Positions 1,712 to 32,465 are shown, counted from the first letter of the stretch. The stretch: 36,322 bases of DNA from Alphaproteobacteria bacterium (GCA_016777645.1 JADHRC010000003.1:1-36322), one strand, 5' to 3'. Translations and numbers: made by a program. Notes: generated from the letters alone by a model not told the origin.

Positions 1712-1730
1712 TAATACACCTAAAATTATT

Positions 1731-2525
1731 TTAAAAATTTTTATTTTTTAGGTATAAATAAACTAAACCAATTAAGGTTAAATCATCTCTAACTAAATCT
1801 ATGCAATTTAAAGATTTTTTAAATAAATGGCTTAGTCCGCCAGTTGCTATAACTTTAAAATTCGAATAAGTTTCTATCGATTTGATTTTAACTATTAAAC
1901 CTTCAATCATTGAAACATATCCCCAAAAAATACCTGATTCCATTGCGTTTATAGTGTTTTTTCCTATTATTGAATTCTTTTCAGATAACATTTTAAGAGA
2001 TACCCTAGGAAGGCTTGCAGCAGCCATATAAAGAGCTTCCAATGATAAGTTTACACCTGGAGCTATAATTCCTCCATTATAACTACCATCCTCACCAACC
2101 ACATCAAAAGTAGTAGCTGTTCCAAAATCTATAATTATAGCTGGTGATAGGTTTAATTTTTCAGCTGCGTATGAATTGACCAATCTATCAGCACCTGCTT
2201 CTTTTGGATTATCAATGTTTACTTTCAATCCTAAATCCAAATTACCCTCTCCTACAATAAGAGGTAAAATTTTAAAATATTTATTTATTAGATGCTTGAT
2301 ATTAAATAAAGTTTCTGGAACCACTGAGGCAATACAAATGCCTTTAATATCCTTAACTTTGAAATTTGATAGATTTAACATTTGCAAAAGCCACGGATAA
2401 TAAATATCAGCCGTTCTTTTTGAATCGTTATTTATCCTCCAACAACCTTTTTGCTCAATGTTATTGTTAAGAGAATAAAGAGCAAAAACTGTATTTGTAT
2501 TACCACAATCGATAACTAATATCAT
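1731..2525 (-). CDS. coaX: type III pantothenate kinase
   Basis: The 264-residue product is a type III pantothenate kinase, which phosphorylates pantothenate in the first committed step of coenzyme A synthesis. The N-terminal phosphate-binding motif DCGNTNT is at residues 6-12. It is followed by GADRLVNSYAA, the acidic DFGTATTFD motif and GGIIAPGVNLSLEAL, all typical of CoaX in the ASKHA fold. Length is normal. It starts 2 bases after the birA stop, so the two genes are almost certainly co-transcribed and perhaps translationally coupled. No canonical CoaA-type gene is visible in the window. Confidence 0.94.
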   Translation of the reverse strand: MILVIDCGNTNTVFALYSLNNNIEQKGCWRINNDSKRTADIYYPWLLQMLNLSNFKVKDIKGICIASVVPETLFNIKHLINKYFKILPLIVGEGNLDLGLKVNIDNPKEAGADRLVNSYAAEKLNLSPAIIIDFGTATTFDVVGEDGSYNGGIIAPGVNLSLEALYMAAASLPRVSLKMLSEKNSIIGKNTINAMESGIFWGYVSMIEGLIVKIKSIETYSNFKVIATGGLSHLFKKSLNCIDLVRDDLTLIGLVYLYLKNKNF

Positions 2526-2527
2526 AA

Positions 2528-3262
2528 TCAGCCTTTATTAACAAAATGGTAACTATCTATTGAATTATACTCAAGTATAGATGTTCCAGAATTGATCATT
2601 AAAAACCCATTATTGCCAAGTCCCAATAAAATACCCCTTAAAGATTTTGTATTCGAATTAAAGTTAATATTTATAACATCACCTCTATATTTTATATATT
2701 TATTAATTTTTTCTTTAAAATAAATAAACCCTTTATCGTTCCATATTTTATAGTTAAAAAAAACTTTTTTTAATATTACATAGGCAATTTGTTCAAGTGA
2801 AAGATTTAAATTAACATGATCATTCACTTTAGTTGTATGCCATTTTTGATCATCAGTAGGATTTTTTAAAATATTAAGACCTATACCAGCAACTATAAAC
2901 CTTTCAGAAGACTCTAATAAAATTCCTGAAATTTTTTTATTATCAACCAAAACATCATTAGGCCATTTTAATTCTATTATTTTACTTTTAATACCAAAGT
3001 CTATTAAGGATTGGATAATTGAATAACCAACTATTAATGATAACTGCTGCCAATGTTTTTTTTCTTTAATAGGTCTTATAATCGTGGATAAAAACAAATT
3101 TCCCTCTAAAGAATTCCACTTGTTATTATTTCTACCTCTACCTTTAGTTTGTTTATAAGATAAATAAGACGTTCCTTGATCAAGCCCATCATTAGCAGCC
3201 TGAAATGCTAGATCATTTGTACTAGAACATATAGATTGGATTTTTAGATTAATATTTACCAA
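2528..3262 (-). CDS. birA: biotin--[acetyl-CoA-carboxylase] ligase
   Basis: This 244-residue protein is a class I biotin protein ligase without the N-terminal DNA-binding domain of E. coli BirA, so it should only attach biotin to carrier proteins and not act as a repressor. The biotinyl-AMP-binding loop appears as KQTKGRGRNNNKW, and the catalytic core as ELKWPNDVLVDNKKISGILLE. A small C-terminal domain follows. The gene lies 99 bases after nqrF on the same strand and is tightly packed with coaX. In most Alphaproteobacteria the gene directly upstream of this birA-coaX-rnj block is nuoN, which makes the Nqr neighbour here notable. Confidence 0.93.
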   Translation of the reverse strand: MVNINLKIQSICSSTNDLAFQAANDGLDQGTSYLSYKQTKGRGRNNNKWNSLEGNLFLSTIIRPIKEKKHWQQLSLIVGYSIIQSLIDFGIKSKIIELKWPNDVLVDNKKISGILLESSERFIVAGIGLNILKNPTDDQKWHTTKVNDHVNLNLSLEQIAYVILKKVFFNYKIWNDKGFIYFKEKINKYIKYRGDVININFNSNTKSLRGILLGLGNNGFLMINSGTSILEYNSIDSYHFVNKG

Positions 3263-3361
3263 ATATAAACCAACATGTAATAAATAGTTTTTTTAAAATA
3301 TAAAATTTAAAGTAAAAATTATTTTTAAAAATAACTATATCTTTTTTGATAAAATTATTAA

Positions 3362-4582
3362 TTAACCACCAAAATCATCAAGCATGATATCTTCCCTATC
3401 AACACCTAAGTCAAGAAGCATATTAATAACTGACTGATTCATCATTGGAGGACCACACATATAAAACTCACAATCTTCAGGAGCTGGGTGATCTTTTAAA
3501 TACTGTTCATATAGAACATTATGAATAAATCCTGTGTGACCATCCCAATTATCTTCAGGCATTGCGTCAGACAAGGCTACATGCCAAGAGAAATTTGAGT
3601 TTTCTTTTGCAAGCCTATCAAAATCTTCAACATAAAACATTTCTTTCTTAGATCGTGCACCATACCAAAAAGTTATTTTTCTTTTTGTTTTAATTCTATT
3701 AAATTGATCAAATAAATGGCTTCTCATAGGAGCCATACCAGCTCCACCTCCTATAAAAACCATTTCTTTATCTGTTTCTCTAGCAAAAAACTCTCCAAAA
3801 GGTCCAGATATTACAACTTCATCACCAGGTTTTAAGTTAAAAATATAAGATGACATTTTTCCTGCGGGAATACCCGTTGAACCGGGAGGTGGTGAAGCAA
3901 TCCTAACGTTCAACATCACAATTCCTTTTTCATCAGGACAATTAGCCATCGAGTATGCCCTCTCTATGGGCTCATTGCTTTCAGCATTAAAGTCCCAGAT
4001 TTTAAATTTATCCCAGTCATCATGGTACTCTTTAGCAACATCAAAATCTTTATATGACAATGAATAACTTGGTGCTTCAATTTGAATGTATCCACCGGCT
4101 CTAAAATTTACATCTTCTCCCTCTGGTAACTCTAATATTAGCTCTTTAATGAAAGTCGCAACATTATCATTACTTCTAACTTTACATCTCCATTTTTTAA
4201 CCCCAAAGACCTCTTCAGGTACTTCGATCTCCATATCCTGTTTAACTGCAACTTGACACGACAATCTATCACCACAAGATGCTTCTCTTTTATTTATATG
4301 ACCCTGTTCGGTTGGAAGTATGGCTCCGCCACCAGAATGAACCTTAACTCTACATTGTGCGCATGTTCCGCCCCCACCACATGCGGATGGAACAAAAAGC
4401 TTTTCCGCAGCTAGCGTTTGCAATAACTTTCCCCCAGCAGGAACAGTTACTGTTTTTTCACCATTAATAGTTATATTAACGTCACCTGAAGAAACGAGTT
4501 TACTCCTTGCAAACACTATGATCGAAACCAAAGTCAAAACAATCATAGTAAATAGAGTAATACCAAGAACAAAAGTATCCAT
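3362..4582 (-). CDS. nqrF: Na+-translocating NADH:quinone reductase subunit F
   Basis: NqrF is the NADH-oxidising entry subunit of the sodium-pumping quinone reductase. The 406-residue protein starts with one membrane helix (about residues 4-25). A 2Fe-2S ferredoxin domain follows, with cysteines in [11 protein letters not shown] and the later CGDRLSC. Next come the FAD-binding part (RAYSMAN, then [14 protein letters not shown]) and the NADH-binding part ([18 protein letters not shown]). The conserved C-terminus DDFGG is intact. It is the last nqr gene, 11 bases after nqrE. All cofactor motifs are present, so the subunit should be active. Confidence 0.97.
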
Positions 4583-4593
4583 TTAAAAATTCC

Positions 4594-5202
4594 TCATAAT
4601 TTAACACCAGAAAAACACATAAAAGCCATCGCCATTAAACCAGCTGTAATAAAGGTAATACCTAACCCTTGAAGACCATCTGGAATATCACTATACTTAA
4701 GCTTTTCCCTTACTCCAGCCATAGTGGCTATAGCAAGAGCCCAACCAAAACCAGAAGCTATTCCGTAGGTTGTAGCTTCGGAAAAATTATAATCACGTTC
4801 AACCATAAATAATGAGCCACCCAGAATTGCGCAATTCACTGTAATTAAAGGAAGAAAAATTCCTAATGCGTTATATAAAGGAGGAAAATATTTGTCTAAT
4901 ACCATTTCTAAAATTTGGACTAAAGCAGCAATAACACCTATATATGAAATCAAACCCAGAAAGGTTAAATCAACATCAGGAAATCCAGCCCAGGCCAAGG
5001 CACCTGGCTTTAAAAGGTAAGTTAAAATAATGTTATTAGCAGGGACAGTTATAGATTGTACTATCATAACAGAAATACCAAGACCTATTGCAGTTGATAT
5101 TTTTTTAGATACAGCAATAAAAGTACACATTCCTAAAAAAAACGATAAAGCTAAATTTTCAACAAATATTGCTTTTACTGCTAATGAAATTAAAGCTTCC
5201 AT
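4594..5202 (-). CDS. nqrE: Na+-translocating NADH:quinone reductase subunit E
   Basis: NqrE is a 202-residue integral membrane subunit with six predicted hydrophobic helices. With NqrD it forms the inverted-repeat pair that holds an intramembrane 2Fe-2S centre in the sodium channel. The ligand cysteines of the family are visible: C26 in FFLGMCTF and a second in [11 protein letters not shown]. Length is typical. The start codon overlaps the nqrD stop by one base, which points to translational coupling. Its closest relative outside Nqr is RnfA, but the surrounding nqrA-F set settles the identity. Confidence 0.96.
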
Positions 5203-5855
5203 TAATGGGCCTCTAAAGATTGTATTTTAAATTCACGCGCTTCAACCTGGGATTTTTTCCATGTTCTAACTCCCCATATTAAAAAACCAATAATAAAAAA
5301 GGCTGATGGTGGTAATAATAACAAACCGTTGGGCACATACCATCCTCCATTGTTAACAGGGTCTAAAATTGTTATTCCAAACAAAGTCCCTGAACCAAAA
5401 AGTTCACGAACAACGCCCACACACATTAAAAGCAAACTGTAACCTAGACCATTACCCACACCATCTACAAAAGAGTCAAACGGCTTGTTTTTCATCGCAA
5501 AAGCTTCAGCTCTTCCCATAACTATACAGTTAGTTATAATTAAACCAACAAAAACAGAGAGAGTTTTTGATATTTCATAGGCAAAAGCTTTAATAATTTG
5601 GTCAACTAAAATAACTAATGATGCTATTATAACCATTTGAACAATAATTCTAATAGAATTTGGAATATAATTTCTTAAAAAAGAAATAAACAGGGAAGAA
5701 AAACCTGTAACAGCTATCACAGCAAGAGACATTACAAACGCTACATTAAGAGAAGAAGTGACAGCAAGAGCAGAACAAATACCTAAAACTTGTAAAGTTA
5801 TTGGATTATTGTCAACAAGAGGATCTACAAGTAATTGCTTTCTTGTTTGAGACAT
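5202..5855 (-). CDS. nqrD: Na+-translocating NADH:quinone reductase subunit D
   Basis: NqrD is a 217-residue, six-helix membrane subunit homologous to NqrE in inverted topology, and supplies the other two ligands of the shared intramembrane iron-sulfur centre. C27 in [11 protein letters not shown] and a cysteine in [15 protein letters not shown] match the expected pair. The conserved segment [12 protein letters not shown] is present. It overlaps both neighbours by one base. RnfE is the related protein in Rnf complexes, excluded here by the full nqr gene order. Confidence 0.96.
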
Positions 5856-6646
5856 TATGCAGCTCCATTTTTAAGATTATTAAGAAACTTTTTAAAACCA
5901 GTTTCACCCATCCAAAATTTAACTAAATTATCCACACCATTGGATGTAAGGGTCGCACCAGCTAAAGCATCAATATGATGATTTTCGTCTTTTTTTGTTT
6001 TTGCCACTTGGATCATCAGATCACCATTTGCGTTAGTTAGTTTTTTTCCATTCCACTGAGCTTTCCACTTTGGGTTATCTACTTCAGCTCCAAGTCCTGG
6101 AGTTTCTGCATGTTGGTAAAATTGAAGACCAAAAATATCATTACAATTTTTTTCAAGCGCAATAAAACCATATAATGTTGACCAAAGGCCATAACCATGG
6201 ATTGGAAGAATTACTTTGTCTAAGGAACCATCTGTATTTTTTAATAAATAAATAGTAGCAAAATTTGTTCTTCTTCCAATAGAAGCAGGATCATCTTTTA
6301 AAGGAGTACTAAGCAAAGGATCTTGCGCAGCTTTTTTGTCATCAAAAGATAAAGGATCAAATTTATCTGTAAATTTACCGGTATTAAGGTCTACCACAGC
6401 TGGCTGGAATGAAGAAAATGTCTTTTGGACATCTATTCCTTCATAATATACACCTGCAACCTGCAATATATTTTTTTGTTTATCTATAGCCTTATTAACC
6501 TCTTGAATTGACTTAAGGTTTACAGCAGCAAAAGACACAACCATAGAACATACAAAACAAAGAGTTGTCGCAACGATAACTGTTTTCGTAATACTATCGA
6601 CAGGCATTTGTTTAAATTTTTTAAAAAAATTGTTTGAATCAGACAT
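5855..6646 (-). CDS. nqrC: Na+-translocating NADH:quinone reductase subunit C
   Basis: NqrC is a 263-residue subunit anchored by one N-terminal helix (about residues 18-40), with a large periplasmic domain carrying covalently bound FMN. The flavinylation site recognised by ApbE is visible as [12 protein letters not shown], with the acceptor threonine at residue 232. [12 protein letters not shown] and [15 protein letters not shown] are other family signatures. The gene overlaps the end of nqrB by 8 bases and the start of nqrD by 1 base. The matching modifying enzyme, apbE, is encoded divergently from the same operon. Confidence 0.97.
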
Positions 6647-21771: not shown

Positions 21772-22749
21772 GTGAAAACAATTATTTCTAAGATTTGTAT
21801 AGCTTTAATCTTTGTTTTTGTTTTAATATCGGGAATATTAATGTCAAAAAAATCGATTGAGTTTAAAAGTGATTTTGATCCAAAATTAATTGGGTTAGAT
21901 ATTGATGAATATCTAAAAAAATCAGAAGAACAAATTACTGATATTAAAGAAGATGTTATAAAAAAAGTTATTTGGGTTAATAGGCCAAATCAAAAAACCC
22001 CTATTTCAATAGTGTACTTACATGGATTTACTGCTACCTCAGAGGAACTTCGCCCTCTTCCAGATATGATTGCAAAAGATATAAAGGCAAATCTTTTTTT
22101 TACAAGATTGACAGGTCATGGAAGAAATTCAGAAGCTATGGAATTGTGTTCTATTAAAAATTGGATAAATGATTTACACGAAGCAATTGAAATTGGCGCA
22201 AGAATTGGAGAAAAAATAATAATACTATCTTCATCTACTGGTGGAACAATAAGTGTAACATCTGCACTAGATGAAAAACTTTCGAAAAACATTATGGGAT
22301 ACATATTTGTATCTCCTAATTTTGGAATAAATCATAGGCTTGCAAGCATTATTACGTGGCCATTTTCTGAATACTGGTTAAAATTAATACTTGGGAAGAC
22401 AATTAAACACTATCCTAGAAATGACCTTAACAAAAAATATTGGACAATGACATATCCCACGAATGCTCTAATTCCTATGGCAAAATTAGTTAATGAAGTT
22501 AATGATAGAGATTTTAGTGATATTGAAAAACCTGCACTCTTTTATTTTTCGTTGGAAGATAAAGTTGTTAATCCACTGAAAACAAAACAATTTATATCTG
22601 GTTGGGGTGGAAAAAATACCACTAAAATTATTAAACTTACAGGTAATGATGATAAATTTTCACACGTATTAGCTGGCTCTATAATTTCTCCTAATCAGAC
22701 TCAACATGCGCGAAAAACAATGGTTAATTGGATTAAAAATTTAAATTAA
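21772..22749 (+). CDS. membrane-anchored alpha/beta hydrolase
   Basis: This 325-residue alpha/beta-fold hydrolase starts at a GTG just after an AGAG ribosome-binding site. That start includes a hydrophobic N-terminal helix (about residues 4-24, IALIFVFVLISGILM), so the enzyme is probably anchored facing the periplasm. The oxyanion-hole segment is VYLHGFTATSEEL. The nucleophile elbow reads LSSSTGGT, with serine in place of the first glycine of GxSxG. SHVLAG near the C-terminus supplies the catalytic histidine. It is divergent from the acyl-CoA synthetase across 109 bases, so a lipid or ester substrate is plausible but not shown. Confidence 0.8.
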   Translation: MKTIISKICIALIFVFVLISGILMSKKSIEFKSDFDPKLIGLDIDEYLKKSEEQITDIKEDVIKKVIWVNRPNQKTPISIVYLHGFTATSEELRPLPDMIAKDIKANLFFTRLTGHGRNSEAMELCSIKNWINDLHEAIEIGARIGEKIIILSSSTGGTISVTSALDEKLSKNIMGYIFVSPNFGINHRLASIITWPFSEYWLKLILGKTIKHYPRNDLNKKYWTMTYPTNALIPMAKLVNEVNDRDFSDIEKPALFYFSLEDKVVNPLKTKQFISGWGGKNTTKIIKLTGNDDKFSHVLAGSIISPNQTQHARKTMVNWIKNLN

Positions 22750-22752
22750 ATC

Positions 22753-22992
22753 TTAATTAAACAATTTATTTGAAAATAGTATTAAAGAATAATGAAGGTT
22801 AATTAATAAATTTTCGTTTTTGTCTTTTATATAACCAAAAGTATATTCAAACTTAACTTTATTATTTGCAAACATACTTCCAATATTAATTACATTTTTA
22901 TCCTAAGATACTTGAGTTTTAATATTTTCCAATTTAGATGTATCAATTTTTTTTGAATATTTTTTATGATTAAGCACTAATATTTTTAAAAA
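22753..22992 (-). pseudogene. decayed fragment of a SnoaL/DUF4440-like gene
   Basis: One minus-strand frame stays open over 80 codons apart from a single in-frame TAG, and has no usable upstream start. After the TAG it reads through INIGSMFANNKVKFEYTFGY and KDKNENLLINLHYSL. This resembles the C-terminal beta-sheet of NTF2-fold (CaMKII-association/DUF4440-type) proteins, whose tail usually reads like YTFxYxxxDGxWLIxxHHSS. The start and N-terminal half are missing, so it looks like a relic. It sits immediately outside the outer tRNA-Glu repeat. The family call is by eye and tentative. Confidence 0.45.
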
Positions 22993-23068
22993 TTAAACTT
23001 TAATATTAATTTACAGATTTGATTAGGAAGGATTTATGTATTCAAAGTTAATGTTTCAAGAAATATAA

Positions 23069-23091
23069 TGGTGATCCCTACGAGATTCGAA
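23069..23091 (-). repeat. partial tRNA-Glu 3' end (outer att-like repeat)
   Basis: These 23 bases are identical to the 3' terminus of the tRNA-Glu gene at 30549, including the CCA end, the acceptor strand and most of the T arm, and are in the same orientation. Identity stops abruptly inside the T arm. The pattern fits an attachment-site remnant left at the far end of an element that integrated into the 3' end of tRNA-Glu. The rest of the tRNA is not present. Confidence 0.75.
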
Positions 23092-23434
23092 TCGGTAATT
23101 TACTGCATCTATGATTAACTCATCTTCGCTAATCAAAGCTCACCTTATCTTTGTATAATATAAGATAATATTAGTCAAGCTCAGATAGTCTAAGATGTGT
23201 CACCAAATTGTCACCAAAGTGACATTTATTCTCGTACGAGTAGATTTTGTCACCTTGTTTATATGTGGTGAAACGTCATAATCGGATATATATTTTAATT
23301 GCGATTTAAGAGACATACTGAAGCGAAAATGAAATCATATATACTTCTAATATTATCAACAGTGATAAGTTAAGTCGGTAATACATTTTTTCATTAATTA
23401 TCTTAAATTCAAAGCTGAATCAATTGTAGGAAAT
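23092..23434. other. non-coding left end of the tRNA-Glu-associated module
   Basis: No gene is apparent in this 343-base stretch between the outer tRNA repeat and the antiporter stop codon. It contains TGTCACC at 23198 and 23209, whose starts are 11 bases apart, an inverted GTGACA at 23219, and another TGTCACC at 23248. It also has the palindrome CTCGTACGAG at 23231. A very similar TGTCACC/TGTCGCC pair with 11-base spacing occurs at the opposite end of the same module, at 29222. These could be arm-type recombinase sites or remnants of an integrase-linked region. Confidence 0.5.
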
Positions 23435-24979
23435 TTATTGATTATGTTTCAGAAATGATTCAGTTACACCGATGCCAGCAGCATCATAGGCATCATAAAT
23501 TTCGTCTGCTCCAGAAGATTTTAATAAATCTGGGTTACCCTGAGATCTTGTGGGTACTATTATTCTTCCTTTAAAACCATATTTTCTAGCCTGTTTTACC
23601 GACCAATTTTGAGCATGAAATTCAGGCAATGCTAGAATAATAGTTGTTAATTTACCAAACCTTAATTTAGACCAAAAACCAGGGTCTTCTGCATCAGCAA
23701 ATGACACTCTTTTTCCCTGTTTAAGAAGATCTAAAGAAAGGTCAGTGTCTGCATCGAAACCAACCACTTTAATATCATTTTTAGATAAATTCTCAAATAT
23801 TGCATTGCCAATGCGCCCCATACCTACAATCATTACTTGAGCTTCACCACAAGTATGAGGTTGTTCATCTGGATGATGTTTTTCTCTTTCAAAATTTACT
23901 AGATATTTTTCTAATATTACATAAATTTCATGAATATATTTATTTAAAATAGACCCAATGATAAAACTTAAACTGACAGAACAAACTAAAACTGCAAATA
24001 AGTTATTATCAACAATTCCAATTTTAAGCCAGTGCGCTAATAAAATTAAAGAAAATTCAGAATATGTTAAAAGTGAAATTGAAATTAGGAAGGAGGAATA
24101 AGCTCTTAAATTCACAAAAATTAATAAGAAGAAAAGTACAACTAATTTTATAATTAGAAATATGATTATTAGTAATGACTCCGAGACAATTTCAAAACTT
24201 AAATTCAATTTCATTCCCAATGAAATAAAAAAAGCCAATAATAAAATCTCTCTTAAACTCCAAATTTTTTCAGCTAAATTTTGTGATCTTTTATAATTAG
24301 AAAGTAACATTCCTAAAATAAGGGCTCCTATTTCTCCAGTTAAACCTAACTTTTCAAAAAGATAACCTCCTAATAATAAAGCAATTAGTACTGAGGCTAA
24401 CAATTCTAATTCTTCACTTGTTTCTAATTTAATTAAAAACTTTTTTAAAACAGGGATAATCAAAGGGATAAAAAGTAGGTATAGTGTATTAAATGATAAA
24501 TTATTACTGCTAGTATACAGTAACAAAGTTAATGCTAAAATATCTTGAAATATGAGTATTAAGATAGAAATTCTACCATGAAATGAATTAATTTCTTGTC
24601 TATCTTCTAATGATTTAGATGCAATAATTGTACTTGAAAATGTTAAAGCTATACATAATAAAACCTTAACTTCTAAATTAACGTTTAAGTTTATTAAAAA
24701 GAAATAAACAAAACTTACTACTGCAGCATGAATAAAAAAAACCTTTAAAAAGGTGAAATTTAAAAAAGCAGAAGGTTTAACTTTGAGCCCAATAGAAAAA
24801 AGTAATAACTCAACACCAATTTTTGAAGGAAAATCTAGTAAACCATTTACATCTGCAAAATTAAAATATTTGAATAAAAAACCAGAGAAGATAAAACCAA
24901 TTAAAATTGGTAAAGATAAAAACTTAAAAATTTGACCACAAATTAATGCGCCACTCATCCAAAATAAAAATAATTCCAT
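23435..24979 (-). CDS. cation:proton antiporter with RCK-N domain (KefB/CPA2-like)
   Basis: The 514-residue protein combines a CPA2-type membrane domain (residues 1 to about 350, roughly 11-12 hydrophobic helices) with a cytoplasmic Rossmann domain. Membrane hallmarks include LPILIGFIFSGFLF, GVELLLFSIGLKV and LGLTGEIGALILGMLLS. The nucleotide-binding motif GMGRIG is at residues 386-391 and is followed by FDADTD, typical of TrkA-N/RCK domains that gate K+ or Na+/H+ exchange by NAD(H). It is related to KefB, KefC and YbaL, but the transported ion is not clear. It is encoded alone, divergent from the ATP-grasp cluster across 166 bases, inside the tRNA-Glu-bounded module. Confidence 0.85.
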   Translation of the reverse strand: MELFLFWMSGALICGQIFKFLSLPILIGFIFSGFLFKYFNFADVNGLLDFPSKIGVELLLFSIGLKVKPSAFLNFTFLKVFFIHAAVVSFVYFFLINLNVNLEVKVLLCIALTFSSTIIASKSLEDRQEINSFHGRISILILIFQDILALTLLLYTSSNNLSFNTLYLLFIPLIIPVLKKFLIKLETSEELELLASVLIALLLGGYLFEKLGLTGEIGALILGMLLSNYKRSQNLAEKIWSLREILLLAFFISLGMKLNLSFEIVSESLLIIIFLIIKLVVLFFLLIFVNLRAYSSFLISISLLTYSEFSLILLAHWLKIGIVDNNLFAVLVCSVSLSFIIGSILNKYIHEIYVILEKYLVNFEREKHHPDEQPHTCGEAQVMIVGMGRIGNAIFENLSKNDIKVVGFDADTDLSLDLLKQGKRVSFADAEDPGFWSKLRFGKLTTIILALPEFHAQNWSVKQARKYGFKGRIIVPTRSQGNPDLLKSSGADEIYDAYDAAGIGVTESFLKHNQ

Positions 24980-25145
24980 TTAAGTTTTATATAAAAATAA
25001 AAAAATAATTAAATTATAACAAAAAAATAGAAAGTTATTTTGTCATAAAGCTAAATTAGAGCTTAATTATTAGGCATTATTTTTAAAAATTAGAACGGAT
25101 TATGATGTAATATAAATTTTTGATTTATAATCATATTTTGTTGAA

Positions 25146-26597
25146 ATGTATTTATTAAAAACTATTCTCATGACCTACAAAATTAAAAATATTGATGAAG
25201 CTTTTATTAGTCATAATTCAGTTAGAACCAATTATAGAAAGTATTATAATTGGTTTAACAATCAAAATTATTCTAATTTAACAAAAAAAAAATCGGATGC
25301 TTTTAAATTTTTTAAAGATACTGGAATTACATTTAAGGTTTATTCTGAGAACAATGATAACGAAAATCTGATACCATTTGATATTATACCAAGAATAATA
25401 AATAGAAGAGAATGGGATAAAGTTGTTAAGGGTATAACTCAAAGAGTTATTGCGATTAACTTATTTCTTAATGATATATATTCAAATCAAGAAATTATTA
25501 ATTCAGGCATAATTCCCATTAGTTTATTAAAAAATAATTCTGCATTTTTTCCTGAAATGATGGGGCTTACTCCCCCCAATAAAATATTTAATCATATATC
25601 TGGAATTGACTTAATAAAAACTGAGAAAAATAATTTTTATGTTTTAGAAGATAATGTGAGAGTTCCATCTGGAGTTTCTTATATGATTGAAAATAGAGAT
25701 ATAATGATGAAATTGTTTCCTGATTTATTTTCCAAATACGCTGTAACTGATAATAGAGATTACCCTAATAAATTATCCAAAATTTTAAAAAAATGTTCAC
25801 CTTTGAAGCGAAAAAAAGAACCTAATATAGCTATTCTTACACCAGGCGTTCACAATTCTGCTTTTTTTGAGCATGCTTTCTTAGCTGATCAATTAGGTGC
25901 AGAATTGGTTGAGAGTAAAGATTTAAGAGTTCTTGATAAATTTTTAAAAATGAAAACCATTGGAGGATGGGAAAAAATTGATATTTTGTACAGAAGAGTG
26001 GATGACGGGTATTTAGATCCCCTAACATTCAAAGAAGATAGTTTTCTGGGTGTGCCTGGTTTAATGGAAGTCTATAGAAACAAGAATATCACAATTGCAA
26101 ATGCTCCAGGAACTGGGATTGCTGATGATAAAGCTATATATTCTTATATTCCAGAAATAATAAATTTTTACCTTGGTGAAAAAGCTATATTAAAAAATGT
26201 TAAAACTTTTAAATGCAGTAACCGAAATGATTTAAAATACGTATTAGATTTTATCGGTGATTTAGTTATAAAGGAAGTACATGGATCTGGGGGATACGGC
26301 ATGTTAATTGGTCCATTATCCAATAAAAGTGAAATTTCTGAATTTAAAAATAAAATTTTAAAAAACCCAAATAATTATATCGCACAACCAACACTATCTT
26401 TGTCTACTTGCCCAATCTTTACCAAAAAAGGGTTATCCCCGAGACATGTTGATTTGAGACCATTTGCTTTATTATCAAATGACGGTGTATCTGTAACGAA
26501 TGGCGGTCTTACAAGAGTGGCATTAAAAAAAGATTCTTTAGTAGTTAATTCCAGCCAAGGCGGTGGTACTAAAGATACTTGGGTATTAGGTGAATAG
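25146..26597 (+). CDS. circularly permuted ATP-grasp protein (COG2308-type amidoligase)
   Basis: This 483-residue protein belongs to the circularly permuted ATP-grasp family, predicted to form peptide-like bonds with ATP. Family signatures are NLFLNDIYSNQEIINSGIIP, FNHISGIDLIKT, VLEDNVRVPSGVSYMIENR and the C-terminal KEVHGSGGYGMLIG with RHVDLRPFAL. An internal ATG at 25170 (MTYKIKNIDEAF) is an alternative start; neither has a strong ribosome-binding site. Its stop TAG overlaps the GTG of the alpha-E gene by one base. The three following genes are its usual partners in bacteria. The substrate has not been established for this type of cluster. Confidence 0.9.
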   Translation: MYLLKTILMTYKIKNIDEAFISHNSVRTNYRKYYNWFNNQNYSNLTKKKSDAFKFFKDTGITFKVYSENNDNENLIPFDIIPRIINRREWDKVVKGITQRVIAINLFLNDIYSNQEIINSGIIPISLLKNNSAFFPEMMGLTPPNKIFNHISGIDLIKTEKNNFYVLEDNVRVPSGVSYMIENRDIMMKLFPDLFSKYAVTDNRDYPNKLSKILKKCSPLKRKKEPNIAILTPGVHNSAFFEHAFLADQLGAELVESKDLRVLDKFLKMKTIGGWEKIDILYRRVDDGYLDPLTFKEDSFLGVPGLMEVYRNKNITIANAPGTGIADDKAIYSYIPEIINFYLGEKAILKNVKTFKCSNRNDLKYVLDFIGDLVIKEVHGSGGYGMLIGPLSNKSEISEFKNKILKNPNNYIAQPTLSLSTCPIFTKKGLSPRHVDLRPFALLSNDGVSVTNGGLTRVALKKDSLVVNSSQGGGTKDTWVLGE

Positions 26598-27523
26598 TGT
26601 TAGGAAGTACTGCAGATTCTTTATTTTGGATGTTTAGATATATTGAAAGGGCTGAGAATACTCTTTGTTTAATAGAAAGTGGTTTTCAACTTCATCTCAT
26701 TTCTTCAAAAAATTTAAAAAACGAGTGGGATGCAATTCTTAAAACTAGTTCGATTAGGCAATTTTTTGTAAAAAATAATACACAACTTGATAGTCTGACA
26801 ATTATAAACTTTATGTTTAAAGATGAAAAAAACTCTAATAATATTTATCAGTTAATCTCAAAAGCAAGAGAAAACGCAAGAAGATCTAGAGTTGCTATCA
26901 CTCTTGAAGTTTGGGAGTCGGTCAATACTTGCTGGCTTTACTTAAATGAACAGACTAAAAAAAATGTGACTGAGAATAAAGTCCAAACTCTTATAAAAAA
27001 TATTAGAGAAAAAATTGCCCTTATTTATGGTTTTTTACAGAAAACTATGTTGAAAGACGAAATCATGAGTTTTTGTAGTTTAGGAACATATATCGAAAAG
27101 TTTAATAATACGGCAAGAATATTGAATACAAGACAATATTTACTTGTTGAAGAAAAGTTATATGGATTAGAAAATTACAATAATTTTCAATTAGAGATGA
27201 TTTTAAGATCTATTTCATCTTACAGATCCTTTATGTGGAAAAATCAAAATACAATAAACTCTAAAAAAGTATCAAATTTTCTAATATCGGACAAAGATAT
27301 GCCAAGGTCATTAATCTTTTCTATTCAAGAAACTCTAAGATGTATAAAAGTCATACAAAATAGGAATATTTATAAGAGTAAATGCTATAAAACAGCCCAA
27401 CAAATTCAAAAAAAAATAAAATCAAGAAAAATGTTTTCTAATAATTATTCATTTTTAAATGATCTAATAGAATTAAATATGAAATTAGCTAATCAAATAG
27501 AGGAAGAATTTAATTTTCACTAA
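26597..27523 (+). CDS. alpha-E domain protein (COG2307)
   Basis: The 308-residue, mostly helical protein starts at a GTG that overlaps the previous stop. The N-terminal LGSTADSLFWMFRYIERAENT is the hallmark of the alpha-E family. KARENARRSRVAITLEVWESVN and a late SRKMFSNNYSFLNDLIELN continue the pattern. These proteins are almost always encoded next to a circularly permuted ATP-grasp gene, and sometimes fused to it, and are thought to act with it in peptide or amide synthesis. No catalytic residues are known. Translational coupling with the ATP-grasp gene suggests fixed stoichiometry. Confidence 0.9.
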   Translation: MLGSTADSLFWMFRYIERAENTLCLIESGFQLHLISSKNLKNEWDAILKTSSIRQFFVKNNTQLDSLTIINFMFKDEKNSNNIYQLISKARENARRSRVAITLEVWESVNTCWLYLNEQTKKNVTENKVQTLIKNIREKIALIYGFLQKTMLKDEIMSFCSLGTYIEKFNNTARILNTRQYLLVEEKLYGLENYNNFQLEMILRSISSYRSFMWKNQNTINSKKVSNFLISDKDMPRSLIFSIQETLRCIKVIQNRNIYKSKCYKTAQQIQKKIKSRKMFSNNYSFLNDLIELNMKLANQIEEEFNFH

Positions 27524-27528
27524 AAATT

Positions 27529-28338
27529 ATGATTTTAAAAATTCAGCAAAAAATAAATTATGATATTAATGGTACAGTTAATTTTGGCTATAATAAGTTA
27601 ATACTAACTCCACAGAATGACTACAATCAAATAATTAAATTTTGGGATATTAGTATTGAAGGAGGTAAGAAAGAACTTAGTTCATCTGATCATTTTGGTA
27701 ACTTGGTAGATTTAGTAAGCATAGAAAGCAATTCCACAAAAATTAAATATGATATTGTTGGAGAGATTGAAACCAAAAATACAAGCGGAATTACTAAAAC
27801 TTCTAAACAGGACTTACCACTTTGGTGTTATACTTCTGATACTAAACTTACGAAGCCAGGCAATCATATATTAAACTTTTATAAAAAAAATCCTATAGAT
27901 TTCAGTAATATAATTAAAAGTCTTCATGCCCTATCTAATAAGATTAGATCAAGTATAAAATATAAAAGTGGAACAACTGATTATAAAACCAACGCTGAAG
28001 AGGCATTCATGAATAAAGTAGGCGTTTGTCAAGATCACACTCATATATTTTTATCTATCCTGCGATTAAACAACTTACCATGCAAGTATGTGAGTGGTTT
28101 TTTTCTACCAAAAAATAAAAATCAAAATCTTGCTATGCACGCCTGGGCTGAGGTTTTTGTTGAAGATTTAGGATGGATAGGTTTTGATATATCCAACGGT
28201 GTTTCCCCGGATGATAGTTACGTAGTTATAGCAAAAGGTTTTGATTATAATAACATTGCACCAGTTAGAGGTGTTATTAATGGTGTATTTGTTGAAAATC
28301 AAAATTTAGAATTAAGTATTGAAAAATTGGATCAATAA
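27529..28338 (+). CDS. transglutaminase-like cysteine peptidase
   Basis: This 269-residue protein has an N-terminal beta-rich domain (residues 1 to about 100) followed by a transglutaminase core. The catalytic triad is visible: C167 in GVCQDHTHIFLSILR, H204 in AMHAWAEVFV and D220 in WIGFDISNG. Members found with ATP-grasp and alpha-E genes are predicted to cleave or transfer peptide-type bonds, perhaps reversing the ligase. It begins 6 bases after the alpha-E stop and is followed 13 bases later by the Anbu gene. There is no signal peptide, so it should act in the cytoplasm. Confidence 0.9.
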   Translation: MILKIQQKINYDINGTVNFGYNKLILTPQNDYNQIIKFWDISIEGGKKELSSSDHFGNLVDLVSIESNSTKIKYDIVGEIETKNTSGITKTSKQDLPLWCYTSDTKLTKPGNHILNFYKKNPIDFSNIIKSLHALSNKIRSSIKYKSGTTDYKTNAEEAFMNKVGVCQDHTHIFLSILRLNNLPCKYVSGFFLPKNKNQNLAMHAWAEVFVEDLGWIGFDISNGVSPDDSYVVIAKGFDYNNIAPVRGVINGVFVENQNLELSIEKLDQ

Positions 28339-28350
28339 GTTGGACAAAAA

Positions 28351-29082
28351 ATGACTTACTGTGTTGGATTAAAATTAAATCGTGGCTTAGTGTTCATATC
28401 AGATACCTTAACTAATGCTGGTATTGACAATATAAATACTAATAAAAAAATGTTTAATTGGCACAAAAAGAATGAAAAATGCATTGTCTTACTTACATCT
28501 GGAAATCTAGCTACATCTCAAGCTACTATAAATCTAATAAATGAAGGTATTGAAGACTTTGAAAATAATGAAAATAACATTCTAAAAGCAAATTCAATGT
28601 TTCAAGTGGCAAGAATTATAGGAAAAATTTTAAGAAATATTGCAAGTGAATACGCATCTGATGGACAAGCTGGTGAAAATCCTTATTCATCTACGTTTAT
28701 ACTTGGCGGGCAATTTAAGGGACAAAGCCATAAGTTGTTTTTAATTTATCCAGAGGGTAATTTTATTGAAGCATCAGAAGATCAACCTTTTTTTCAAATT
28801 GGCGAGACTAAATATGGAAAACCTATTTTAGTACGAGCATTGGAACAAGATGCAACTTTTGGAGATTCCATAAAACTTTTATTGGTATCTTTTGATAGTA
28901 CTATGAAAGCTAATGTTTCTGTTGGAATGCCAATAGATATTTGCACTATTAAAAAAGACCAATATAGAGTTAACAAACAAATTAGAATAGAAAAGAATGA
29001 CCCATATTTTCAGGAAATTTCTAACGGTTGGGGGGAGTCTCTCAAAAAAAGTATTAAAGAACTTCCATCATTTAATTTTTAG
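28351..29082 (+). CDS. Anbu, proteasome-like Ntn hydrolase
   Basis: The 243-residue protein starts MTYCVGLKLNRGLVFISDTLTN, the characteristic Anbu (ancestral beta subunit, COG3484) N-terminus. Removal of Met1 would expose Thr2 as the N-terminal nucleophile. Other conserved parts are VLLTSGNLATSQATI and PYSSTFILGGQ. Known Anbu proteins form open helical or ring assemblies related to HslV and the proteasome beta subunit, and their natural substrate is unknown. Co-encoding with ATP-grasp, alpha-E and transglutaminase genes is a known conserved association and suggests that Anbu processes a product of that ligase system. It is the last gene of the operon, without an obvious terminator. Confidence 0.93.
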   Translation: MTYCVGLKLNRGLVFISDTLTNAGIDNINTNKKMFNWHKKNEKCIVLLTSGNLATSQATINLINEGIEDFENNENNILKANSMFQVARIIGKILRNIASEYASDGQAGENPYSSTFILGGQFKGQSHKLFLIYPEGNFIEASEDQPFFQIGETKYGKPILVRALEQDATFGDSIKLLLVSFDSTMKANVSVGMPIDICTIKKDQYRVNKQIRIEKNDPYFQEISNGWGESLKKSIKELPSFNF

Positions 29083-29221
29083 ACATTATCGTAATTTAAT
29101 TTTTACTTTTAATGTTTCATTCTAGAGTTTTGTCAACGACACTTTTACCTCCAATATTTATTGTTTGAGGATTAATTTCCATAAATTAATTAATTGTATA
29201 ATGCATATTCTCGTAGGAATT

Positions 29222-29239
29222 TGTCACCAAAATGTCGCC
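29222..29239 (+). repeat. TGTCACC/TGTCGCC pair beside the inner att-like repeat
   Basis: Two heptamers, TGTCACC and TGTCGCC, start 11 bases apart and lie 47 bases left of the inner tRNA-Glu repeat. The same arrangement, TGTCACC-N4-TGTCACC, occurs near the outer repeat at 23198. Shared spacing of one helical turn at both ends of one module suggests binding sites for a recombinase, although chance or a shared relic of coding sequence cannot be ruled out. Confidence 0.45.
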
Positions 29240-29285
29240 GTAGACAAATATAACTGAAAAAAATCAATAAAATCAATGGGTAAAA

Positions 29286-29329
29286 TGGTGATCCCTACGA
29301 GATTCGAACTCGTATTGCCGCCGTGAAAG
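29286..29329 (-). repeat. partial tRNA-Glu 3' end (inner att-like repeat)
   Basis: These 44 bases are identical to the 3' part of the tRNA-Glu gene at 30549, from the CCA end through the T arm and variable loop into the anticodon loop, in the same orientation. Identity ends right after the anticodon, and the following sequence is unrelated. The 5' half of the tRNA is absent, so this is not a functional tRNA. Ending in the anticodon region fits a common crossover position of tyrosine recombinases that use tRNA genes. Confidence 0.82.
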
Positions 29330-29392
29330 TCCGTAAAAATACGGTTTATACGACCCATGAATGGCGGAATAAAGCCATATAGGGGAAAGTGA

Positions 29393-29433
29393 TTCCATGT
29401 GTTCCCACATGGAACCTGGAACAAATCTGGAAC
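29393..29433. repeat. hairpin and TGGAAC repeats beside the inner att-like repeat
   Basis: TTCCATGTG and CACATGGAA form a perfect 9-base inverted repeat around a 4-base loop. The motif TGGAAC then occurs three times, starting at 29410, 29417 and 29428. The last two starts are 11 bases apart. The cluster lies 64 bases right of the inner tRNA repeat, inside the second module. It could be an arm-type recombinase site or a terminator for minus-strand transcription from the DehI-like gene, although a T tract is lacking. Confidence 0.45.
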
Positions 29434-29453
29434 AGATTGTATTCAAAATAATT

Positions 29454-30248
29454 CTAAGTTTTTTGTATTAAAGAATTTTGAAGCATAACCCCAACTACAA
29501 GCATTTTTGGAATAACAACTGTAACTAGGTTGTGGATAGGAATATTAATATCAACTTTATTATTAGGATTTGTTTTGATATTGATGTCATTCAGCAAAGG
29601 TTCAATCATAATTTCAGTTCTTTTATTTAAAAATGATATGTTATTTTTAAACAAGCTTTTATCTAAACCAGAAAACATTCCCCATATCAAAGACAAAAAA
29701 GAAGGCCACCTTGATAGTTCAACATATAGACCAGGCGGAAATGGAATATATTCATTAGTATTTATAAACATTTCTGATAGAGAATTGATAGATGCAAAGG
29801 TTTCTTTACTAATTAAGTGAGAAACATCATTTTGTGTTATTTTGCTTTCAAGCAAAATATTATCTTTTAAAAAAATATTTTGGTCATAAGCTTTTAGAAA
29901 AGATGACAAACCAATAAGGTTTTTTGAATTTCCAGTATTATATTTTTCAATAATTTTAATAATCTCTATTTTTTCTTCTTTTTTTATACCTATGGATTTA
30001 AGAATGTGATCTGGAATTTTAGGTAATTTCTGAATTTGAATGCTATCTATTATTTGAGGTTGCACTTTTTCAAGTTTACCAGACATATATAATGTTTTTG
30101 AAGAATCCCAAACCCATTCTAAGCTTCCATCAATAGTTGCAAGATACCGCCATATTGTATTAACCACTTTAAGATTTAATGATTTTCTTAAATCAGAGTA
30201 AATCAAGGCTATATTGCCCTGAGCATCTTCTTCTTTGATTTCATACAT
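29454..30248 (-). CDS. DehI-like (halocarboxylic acid dehydrogenase/dehalogenase family) protein
   Basis: The 264-residue protein resembles the DehI family of alpha-helical 2-haloacid dehalogenases, which displace halide from haloalkanoic acids. Family-like segments are IYSDLRKSLNLKVVNTIWRYLATI with a following WVWDSSKTLYMSGKL near the N-terminus, and YIPFPPGLYVELSRWPSFLSLIW in the C-terminal half. The two similar halves fit the pseudo-repeat of DehI. The catalytic aspartate of characterised DehI could not be placed with confidence, so enzyme activity is uncertain. It is the only gene between the inner repeat and tRNA-Glu, which suggests it was acquired as a small cargo module. Confidence 0.7.
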   Translation of the reverse strand: MYEIKEEDAQGNIALIYSDLRKSLNLKVVNTIWRYLATIDGSLEWVWDSSKTLYMSGKLEKVQPQIIDSIQIQKLPKIPDHILKSIGIKKEEKIEIIKIIEKYNTGNSKNLIGLSSFLKAYDQNIFLKDNILLESKITQNDVSHLISKETFASINSLSEMFINTNEYIPFPPGLYVELSRWPSFLSLIWGMFSGLDKSLFKNNISFLNKRTEIMIEPLLNDINIKTNPNNKVDINIPIHNLVTVVIPKMLVVGVMLQNSLIQKT

Positions 30249-30548
30249 TAATACAAATCCTAAATATTTCTTAAAACATTTTAAGTATCTAGACTTTTTC
30301 TATATCAGTAAAGAAAAGAGATACAAAAATAGCTTTTGATAGCTAAAGTGTTTCCCCCTAGTTATTGCCGTCATAAAATGCCCTAAAATTCTAATTCTAT
30401 GCCCTATAATTAGCGTAAAAAGGTATATTAAAAAAAGTAGTTTCTTTATAACCAAATAAACCTTTAACAAAGGCTAAAATAAAATAGCAAAAAAAGATGC
30501 AAAAATCTCTTGTAGGTAATTGATATATATATATATAGGAAAATTAAG
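30249..30548. other. non-coding stretch between the DehI-like gene and tRNA-Glu
   Basis: No convincing gene is present in these 300 bases. A 13-base direct repeat, ATGCCCTAWAATT, occurs at 30378 and 30399, so the copies start 21 bases apart (about two helical turns), with one mismatch. It could be an operator for the DehI-like gene, which starts about 130 bases to the left, or an arm-type recombinase site at the tRNA-proximal end of the module. A short TATATATATATA tract lies near 30524. Confidence 0.4.
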
Positions 30549-30623
30549 TGGTGATCCCTACGAGATTCGAACTCGTATTGCCGCCGTGAAAGGGCGGTGT
30601 CCTAACCATTAGACGAAGGGACC
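30549..30623 (-). tRNA. trnE: tRNA-Glu (UUC)
   Basis: On the minus strand the 75 bases fold as a standard tRNA. The 7-base acceptor GGTCCCT pairs with AGGGATC, the anticodon stem is CCGCC/GGCGG with loop CTTTCAC, and the T arm is ACGAG-TTCGAAT-CTCGT. The anticodon TTC reads Glu codons. The discriminator A and the CCA end are encoded in the DNA. It lies 36 bases downstream of recJ on the same strand. Its 3' end is repeated at 29286 and 23069, marking it as an integration target that has been regenerated intact. Confidence 0.97.
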
Positions 30624-30659: not shown

Positions 30660-32465
30660 TCAAGTAACATCTGAATAAATAATATCATCTAACATTAATT
30701 CCACAGAATTACTATTGTTCCATGTATCTATAGATAAGCTACCTAAGAAATTGAAAACTTTATTTTCGTAGTCATTAAACACTATATTTAAAGAACTATT
30801 TAGAAGATTAAATTTTTTAACTTTTAGTTTTTTTGATGATCCGTCATTTATATAAAAAGAAGCATGCTCATTATTAATACCAAACCTTCTGAACGATGAA
30901 ATCTTACCATTAGGTATAATAAATTTAGGTTCTTCCATTTCCGAGCCCCAAGGGCCTAATGTTTGAAGCCAATTTGCTAATTCATAAGTGCAAGCTGAAA
31001 TTGGTATAACCGAAGTAGCAATATAAGAAATTCTAGGAATACCAAAGTTCAAAATTTCATTTACTTTTTGATTTATATAATCATTAAAACTACCAATCTC
31101 TGATTTTTTAATTGTAAAGCCCGCAGCCATGTCATGCCCTCCACCAGAACTAATTAGCTTTTGATTAAAGGCTTCTAAAATTATTTTTCCAAGAGGCACT
31201 CCAAAAATAGACCTTCCTGATCCCTTTCCTATCCCACTTCTATTAAGAGATATTATACATACTGGTCTGTTGTATAATTCTTTCATTCTTCCTGCTACTA
31301 TTCCAGTAACACCTTCGTGAAAATCATCTCCACTTACAATAATAGCACTAGGAAGTTCCTTAGAAGTTTTTATAATTTTTTCTATTTTTCCTATAACTTT
31401 TTTTTCTAGTTCAGCAGTTAAAATTCTCCTTTTTTTATTCAAATCATCTAATTTAGTGGCAAGTTCAAAAGCCTTATATTCATTTTTTTCTTTTAATAGA
31501 CTTACACCTAAGTTACTGTTTCCTATCCTGCCCCCAGCATTAATTCTTGGTCCTAAAGAAAATCCTAATGATTGGGTGTTAGGCTTAGTATTTAATTTAC
31601 TAATATCCGATAAAGCCTTAAGTCCTGGGTTACCTCTTTGCGTCATTATTGATAAGCCCTGTTTAACAAAAGCTCTGTTTAAACCTTTTAGAGGGACCAC
31701 ATCGCATACGGTTCCAAGTGCAACAAGATCTAAAAATTGCATTAGGTTTGGTTCTCTTTTTTTTAAAAAAAAACCTTTGTTTCTTAATTCTCTGTTCAAT
31801 CCGATTAAAAAAATAAAAACCACACCAGCTGCGCATAAATCTTCAAAACCTTCTTTCGTGTCACTTCTTTTGGGGTTAATAATTGCATATGCAGGTGGTA
31901 AAGTTATATCAGGGATGTGGTGATCTATTACTATGAGATCAAGTTTTATATTAGACATTGCTTTTAATGGCTCGAAGGATGAAATACCACAGTCAACAGT
32001 AATAATTAACTCCGTCCCTTTTTTGTAAAGAGATTTTAATGCTTCCTCATTTGGTCCATACCCTTCTAAAAATCTATCTGGAATATGTATAAAAGTTTTA
32101 CAACCACACTGCTCAAGAAAACTAGAAATCATTGCTGCAGAAGTAGCCCCATCAACGTCATAATCGCCCAATATACCTACAGGTCTTGAATTTATTATTT
32201 CATCAGCTAATCTTTTTACTCCTTTTTCTAAATCTTTGAAAAGGAACGGTTCAGGTAATAAGTTTTTAAGTTTTGGTGAAAAAAAATTTTCAAAATCACT
32301 CAAATTAATCCCTTTAAACATTAAATAAGGAGATATGAATTCAGGTATTTGATATCTTTGATGTAAATAATCAGAAAATCTTTTAGTAAATTCATCCGAA
32401 TAAATTAGATTCCAATCCGCATTATTAAATGAAGGTTTTATATTAAACAGTTTTGTTCTAGGCAA
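30660..32465 (-). CDS. recJ: single-stranded-DNA-specific exonuclease RecJ
   Basis: RecJ is the 5'-3' exonuclease acting on single-stranded DNA in recombination and mismatch repair. The 601-residue product has motif DYDVDGATS (residues 101-109), TVDCGISS, and the DHH motif at residues 181-183. The DHHA1 domain shows GSGRSIFGVPLG and SSGGGHDMAAGF. A C-terminal OB-fold domain is present. Length is typical. It follows hom by 22 bases. In many Alphaproteobacteria glpX lies between hom and recJ, and it is missing here. Confidence 0.95.
   Translation of the reverse strand: MPRTKLFNIKPSFNNADWNLIYSDEFTKRFSDYLHQRYQIPEFISPYLMFKGINLSDFENFFSPKLKNLLPEPFLFKDLEKGVKRLADEIINSRPVGILGDYDVDGATSAAMISSFLEQCGCKTFIHIPDRFLEGYGPNEEALKSLYKKGTELIITVDCGISSFEPLKAMSNIKLDLIVIDHHIPDITLPPAYAIINPKRSDTKEGFEDLCAAGVVFIFLIGLNRELRNKGFFLKKREPNLMQFLDLVALGTVCDVVPLKGLNRAFVKQGLSIMTQRGNPGLKALSDISKLNTKPNTQSLGFSLGPRINAGGRIGNSNLGVSLLKEKNEYKAFELATKLDDLNKKRRILTAELEKKVIGKIEKIIKTSKELPSAIIVSGDDFHEGVTGIVAGRMKELYNRPVCIISLNRSGIGKGSGRSIFGVPLGKIILEAFNQKLISSGGGHDMAAGFTIKKSEIGSFNDYINQKVNEILNFGIPRISYIATSVIPISACTYELANWLQTLGPWGSEMEEPKFIIPNGKISSFRRFGINNEHASFYINDGSSKKLKVKKFNLLNSSLNIVFNDYENKVFNFLGSLSIDTWNNSNSVELMLDDIIYSDVT

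Follow-up and report, generated by a model that had tools for sequence, protein, structure and literature searches.

Organization of the tRNA-Glu locus

The window analysed here is a stretch of 36,322 nucleotides from an alphaproteobacterial assembly (GCA_016777645.1 JADHRC010000003.1:1-36322). Between a chromosomal alpha/beta hydrolase gene and recJ, it contains an intact tRNA-Glu(UUC) gene and two adjacent elements, herein designated A and B (Table 1). Relatives sharing the tRNA-Glu/recJ locus were alphaproteobacteria of the SAR116 cluster. The 3′ end of the tRNA gene, which is also the right att core of element B, is copied exactly and in the same orientation at two other places, over 44 bp as far as the anticodon loop at the left end of B, and over 23 bp as far as the T loop at the left end of A. 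Outside the tRNA gene itself, the longest exact match in the window was 44 bp, compared with at most 12 bp (mean 9.7) in Markov-resampled windows. No further copy of the tRNA-Glu 3′ end was found in the remainder of the assembly, which comprises 1.34 Mb in 114 contigs and is approximately 64 % complete, so that statements on absence from it are limited. In the Rfam search, the tRNA alone was above the threshold. No integrase was detected between the repeats by Pfam, and a tblastn search with 14 phage integrases revealed no integrase fragment there.

Table 1. Features of the tRNA-Glu locus, with positions counted from the first nucleotide of the window
Feature	Position	Strand	Evidence or remark
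Alpha/beta hydrolase, chromosomal left flank	21772–22749	+	Adjoins tRNA-Glu directly in empty-site genomes
Element A, integrase-less cassette, att core to att core	23069–29308	.	98.0 % DNA identity to G035
23-bp left att core of A, exact copy of tRNA 3′ end	23069–23091	+	
P′ arm of A	23069–23329	+	94.3 % over 261 bp to phage L134 7738–7996, E 6e-114
Three TGTCACC arm-type repeats in P′ arm of A (23198, 23209, 23248)	23198–23254	+	
33-bp noncoding block, candidate packaging or other phage cis-signal	23295–23327	+	3 mismatches vs phages
Start of host cargo, truncated 5′ end of hotdog thioesterase (4HBT) gene	23322–23393	−	Right limit estimated from alignment
CPA2 monovalent cation:proton antiporter, TrkA-N domain (Kef-like)	23435–24979	−	PF00999, PF02254
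Circularly permuted ATP-grasp, Anbu operon	25146–26597	+	PF14403, 1e-151
Alpha-E protein, Anbu operon	26597–27523	+	PF04168, 1e-64
Transglutaminase-like protein, Anbu operon	27529–28338	+	PF01841
Anbu proteasome-like peptidase	28351–29082	+	PDB Anbu 5nyj, E 9e-70
P arm of A and right core	29207–29308	+	83.3 % over 102 bp to L134 7659–7760, E 1e-25
P-arm repeats of A	29222 and 29233	+	Second reads TGTCGCC (one mismatch)
Element B, 1.26 kb, integrase-less	29286–30548	.	93.6 % DNA identity to G068, same tRNA
Left att of B, 44-bp tRNA copy, includes right core of A	29286–29329	+	Decayed counterpart L121 5263–5306
264-aa cargo gene of B	29454–30248	−	No Pfam family
tRNA-Glu(UUC), intact, integration target	30549–30623	−	ARAGORN; Rfam tRNA, 64 bits
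recJ, chromosomal right flank	30660–32465	−	TIGR00644

An earlier note, made from the sequence alone, had described the two repeats and the absence of an integrase between them. The lengths, positions and orientation of the repeats held exactly, as did the reach of the 44-bp copy to the anticodon loop, the lack of an integrase (Pfam and tblastn) and the location of recJ beside tRNA-Glu (TIGR00644). Partial tRNA copies scattered over many unrelated places, which the note had named as a refutation, were not present in the assembly of the window.

Approximately 300 bp of AT-rich DNA (22752–23057) separates the hydrolase gene from the left core of A; this stretch is absent in G030, and no match to it was found. 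It might represent an older scar.

Empty sites and the order of integration

The same locus was found empty or singly occupied in relatives. Judged by recJ (81 %), G030 is the nearest relative, and there tRNA-Glu and recJ come after the hydrolase gene with a gap of only 26 bp; in G028, which also has an empty site, the gap between hydrolase and tRNA-Glu is 35 bp. The site in G035 contains element A without element B, and that in G068 contains element B without element A. Because each element occurs alone in one of these genomes, A and B are independent units. In all likelihood, A integrated first and B later, between A and tRNA-Glu, and the locus most probably reflects two successive integrations at the 3′ end of this tRNA gene. 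The regeneration of the tRNA 3′ end, with a partial copy at the far end, meets one criterion of a tRNA-targeting tyrosine-recombinase element; that of carrying its own recombinase is failed by both A and B.

The entry of two elements in turn, the outer one first, had been proposed in the earlier note, and both the proposal and the order were supported. Two observations it had suggested looking for were made, namely, empty-site alleles (G030 and G028) and other cargo at tRNA-Glu in relatives. Synteny of the whole block in distant relatives would have refuted it; instead, A and B recur singly at the same tRNA. Its suggestion of two different recombinases remains plausible, that of A being attributed to a family of phages whose core measures 22–25 bp and the core of B being 44 bp. 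Of the two readings it had left open, stripped relic or passenger, the latter fits far better for A, because the same integrase-less A with the same junctions is present in two species. The identification of the ends of A as phage attP arms, described below, goes beyond what the note could see.

Cargo and recent transfer of element A

Element A in the window (23069–29329) and its copy in G035 (L036 9670–15931), which comes from an independent assembly, were 98.0 % identical over 6264 bp. This high identity stopped exactly at the att core, and both flanks showed only 74–77 % DNA identity. Between the two copies, the cargo genes had dS values of 0.03–0.07, whereas recJ differed at 64 % of synonymous sites. 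The low divergence and att-exact ends of A, compared with its diverged flanks, indicate that A was acquired recently by two diverged SAR116 lineages in separate events. These results demonstrate the recent transfer of A between SAR116 species at the same tRNA. The dN/dS of approximately 0.1 indicates that the cargo genes have been kept under purifying selection.

The cargo includes an antiporter gene and the complete set of the Anbu operon (ATP-grasp, Alpha-E, transglutaminase and Anbu). The operon has been described previously, and its function is uncertain (PMC5666114). PADLOC, used to look for a role of the cargo in defence, returned no match for Anbu. Neither A nor B contained a conjugation gene (Pfam) or recognizable replication genes, and the antiporter and ATP-grasp were not found on viral contigs. 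In G035, the ATP-grasp gene of A (L036 11759–13196) is split by a frameshift, representing either a true mutation or a single-cell amplification error.

Positions 254–6036 of A shared 91 % identity with a chromosomal segment of clade-A SAR116 genomes, in which the antiporter gene and the Anbu operon are flanked by a thioesterase gene on one side and an abhydrolase/M19 pair on the other, beside the same tRNA. The homology to clade-A chromosomes starts at position 254 of A, within the thioesterase gene, and the phage arm meets the host DNA at a common AGCGAA microhomology. From this junction, we infer that the cargo was captured from a SAR116 chromosome through an illegitimate recombination event of the kind known from specialised transduction.

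Phage attP arms at the ends of element A

The sole contig matching A at both ends was L134, a temperate podovirus-like IMG/VR contig (Table 1). Relative to the core, arm repeats, which read TGTCACC in L134, are located at −65, −54, +128, +139 and +178 in both L134 and A, and the L134 integrase gene (PF00589/phrog_1) starts approximately 150 bp from the core. The P′-arm sequence of L134 past the core was detected in two of the 58 family genomes, in both cases at the left end of A.

A scan of viral contigs with the 22-bp core yielded 16 contigs of up to 35.8 kb, none with a called tRNA gene. An integrase-size ORF starts 154–209 bp to the left of the core in 14 of these, and the three ORFs tested were PF00589 integrases. 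The set also encodes a repressor-like protein, tail fibres, a head–tail adaptor and terminase. Scans of the viral contigs with a 40-bp tRNA sequence and with a 20-mer from the P arm of A gave no matches. Among the 58 family genomes, the search for a resident helper related to the L134 integrase gave only distant matches, and no related prophage was found. The core was present in 15 of these 58 genomes (19-bp pattern); across the class, it was present in one of 385 genomes (22-bp pattern), the one being that of the window itself. Such a clade-specific core points to SAR116 as the likely host of these phages. The ends of A are the two arms of the attP site of temperate phages integrating at tRNA-Glu, and the missing integrase of A can, with good probability, be traced through the arm repeats and the core to the L134 type, albeit without any experiment showing excision or integration.

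Exchange of integrase arm specificity among phages

Among the related phages, the arm-repeat set carried by A is that of L134 only. Other phages have arm repeats at comparable positions with different sequences, including the TTACACCC group. Seven phages encode integrases that are 96–99 % identical outside the first 62 residues, these 62 residues being 88–100 % identical within an arm-repeat group and 38–50 % identical between groups. In lambda-type integrases, arm binding is the task of the N-terminal domain. Since this domain and the repeats change together, arm-site specificity is being exchanged as a module. The change of the N-terminal approximately 62 residues along with the arm repeats was observed over the attP regions of L133–L148.

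A conserved 33-bp block downstream of attP

Downstream of attP, a 33-bp block is conserved in most core-bearing phages, once per contig, and it is retained in element A with three mismatches in the window and five in G035. The same block is present in otherwise unrelated phages (L134 7962–7994 and L268 4401–4433). In L268, which lacks an integrase of the L134 family, the block has 3/33 mismatches and is located approximately 330 bp upstream of the terminase small subunit gene (terS). The region upstream of terS is a usual position for a packaging site. In L134-type phages, the block does not adjoin the terminase, and its folding showed nothing unusual. An involvement of the block in the packaging of A is conceivable, inferred merely from its position in an unrelated phage, and should be regarded as no more than a hint.

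Element B and other occupants of tRNA-Glu

In G068, which belongs to another genus, element B is located directly behind the same hydrolase gene and ahead of the same tRNA-Glu; its cargo showed 97 % protein identity, compared with 53–72 % for the neighbouring genes. The distal att copy of B in G068 is decayed and covers the same 44 positions. For the 264-aa cargo protein, there was only a weak DehI-like hint in a distant paralogue family, no PADLOC match was obtained, and the protein was not found on viral contigs. The search for a helper was negative: the right arm of B was detected in G068 only, apart from a short tRNA-side stretch in G061 and matches at chance level. B probably behaves as A does, plausibly through a different recombinase, for which no helper was found.

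Other occupants of tRNA-Glu were also identified. A third integrase-less element, in G001, carries a 226-aa methyltransferase-like gene; its left end is 66.5 % identical to phage L138 over 224 bp, and TTGGCACCAAA repeats are present at both ends. A fourth integrase-less element, in G061, carries genes for 619-aa and 213-aa proteins (L122 8770–11288) that gave no Pfam, PHROG or PADLOC match, and its left end is weakly similar to phage L133 (67 % over 131 bp). G061 also contains a scar resembling a B-type att, and its scars are nested. In G024 and G012, phage-arm-like sequence lies next to tRNA-Glu without cargo. The tRNA-Glu gene has long been in use as a landing site.

Mechanism and alternative explanations

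For element A, site-exact repeated integration, the absence of an integrase and the presence of phage-derived arms at native repeat spacing have been shown. We consider A likely to be a non-autonomous cassette that was integrated by a phage integrase supplied from elsewhere, with the action in trans and the origin by capture being inferred. According to this model, phage attP arms would have been joined to SAR116 chromosomal DNA at the AGCGAA microhomology, akin to specialised transduction, and excised A would be a circle of complete attP (P arm, core and P′ arm) plus 5.8 kb of host DNA. A phage in the same cell would supply the integrase, which would bind the arm repeats of A and would insert A at tRNA-Glu, or excise it, leaving the tRNA intact. 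B would enter tRNA-Glu later in the same manner, through another recombinase. Packaging, transformation or a gene transfer agent could each have served as the vehicle of A between cells, none being established. Several points weigh against this model or limit it. The matching arm set is present on one phage contig only, there is one genome pair per element and the assemblies are drafts, one P-arm repeat of A has a mismatch, no prophage or integrase of the L134 family was found in the 58 family genomes, and the cargo is absent from viral contigs. A single founding event per lineage, without later movement, fits equally well.

The closest competitor is a remnant resembling cis-mobilizable elements (CIMEs), in which a phage inserted to form a tandem with A, both were moved as a single composite and the phage was lost later, the integrase having acted in cis. 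Tandem accretion and cis-mobilization are established for pairs of ICEs and CIMEs (PMC5704250), and accreted sites are seen here, with B behind A and nested scars in G061. However, a composite of phage and A was found in no genome, and the combined length, with 32.8 kb or more of phage plus 6.2 kb, may be too much for one capsid. This explanation is unlikely, although not excluded, and we infer that the integrase most likely acted on A in trans rather than in cis from a lost tandem prophage. That A and B are stripped relics, prophages or islands whose integrases were lost at the site, would agree with the lack of an integrase in both and with the phage-arm-like scars at tRNA-Glu in other genomes. 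Nevertheless, the same A in two species would require identical deletions, the DNA between its arms is SAR116 chromosome (91 % to clade-A loci) rather than phage, and the cargo is under purifying selection; we regard this explanation as very improbable. Equally remote is the movement of the block by homologous recombination between relatives, the tRNA copies being old scars. This is a general possibility among SAR116 genomes that no result here supports, and against it, the identity of A ends sharply at the att core with flanks of 74–77 % DNA identity, the neighbours of B in G068 share only 53–72 % protein identity, and an empty-site recipient type shares just 23–44 bp.

A bolder reading than the trans-integrated cassette, and one we consider unlikely, is that A is a minimal satellite whose only phage components are cis-signals, namely, the attP arms and a packaging site, enclosing bacterial genes, that it is mobilized and packaged wholly by a SAR116 temperate phage, and that phages swap the arm-binding domain and repeats partly under the pressure of such parasites. 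If so, each cassette would be keyed to one integrase variant.

Comparison with known mobile elements

A probably works like a CIME or a phage satellite with a phage integrase as its recombinase, yet it misses a defining feature of each. CIMEs have retained att sites but no integration genes, and their ancestors are ICEs or IMEs (PMC5704250). A resembles them in being att-flanked, without integration genes and accreted in tandem at a gene 3′ end, thus meeting the criterion of attL/attR with lost integration and transfer genes; it fails that of ICE or IME derivation, since it is not an ICE remnant but a piece of host chromosomal DNA enclosed by phage attP arms. Known satellites are described as needing self-encoded integrases and excision factors (PMC10803314). 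PICIs, PICMIs and other phage satellites are similar to A in small size (6,110 bp for PICMI115), att repeats, marine host and apparent phage dependence (PMC10803314), and the criterion of site-specific integration with direct repeats is met; that of an own integrase, with excision, replication or AlpA-type genes, is failed, as A and B have neither integrase nor excision factors and the Pfam content of A is limited to the antiporter and the Anbu operon. Recombinase-less hitchers include CALINs and MITEs, whose ends, like those of A, are recognized by an enzyme encoded elsewhere (PMC11389934); in contrast, the enzyme inferred for A is a temperate phage integrase and its ends are attP arms. Specialised transducing phages of the lambda dgal type join phage att illegitimately to host DNA. 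Unlike these, A lacks nearly all of the phage and has host DNA between both arms. Tycheposons, named in PMC11389934, likewise carry cargo and occupy tRNA genes in abundant marine bacteria; they characteristically have a tyrosine recombinase, which neither A nor B carries. In the literature searched, we found no matching report of integrase-less phage satellites or of SAR116 prophages at tRNA genes, although this is not proof of novelty.

Integrase-less islands are usually taken for dead relics, whereas A integrated site-exactly in two species. Bacterial genes thus appear to cross species by means of a phage enzyme in SAR116, a common marine bacterium, and the traceable enzyme of A makes mobilization in trans directly testable. 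Cassettes of the A type are a possible route for the patchy spread of the Anbu operon. The analysis also brought to light the modular swap of integrase arm specificity among close phages.

Other arrangements of the cargo genes in relatives

Some further arrangements were observed in relatives. G035 lacks the antiporter/Anbu block at its usual clade-A place (L036 7690–7789 vs L037 8061–14004) and has element A instead, and in G027 a mere deletion scar of the block is left (L123 9226–9637). In clade B (L057, L058 and L059), a diverged Anbu operon with 62–79 % protein identity is located directly behind the hydrolase gene, without the antiporter. A broken copy of the 264-aa gene of B is present in G067 (L127 3508–3815), approximately 1.3 kb from a gene for a 405-aa integrase and away from tRNA-Glu. 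In G033, the Anbu operon is directly followed by a second tRNA-Glu-like gene, whose 5′ half has diverged (L124 14281–16478), and then by a GmrSD/HEC-05-like defence gene.
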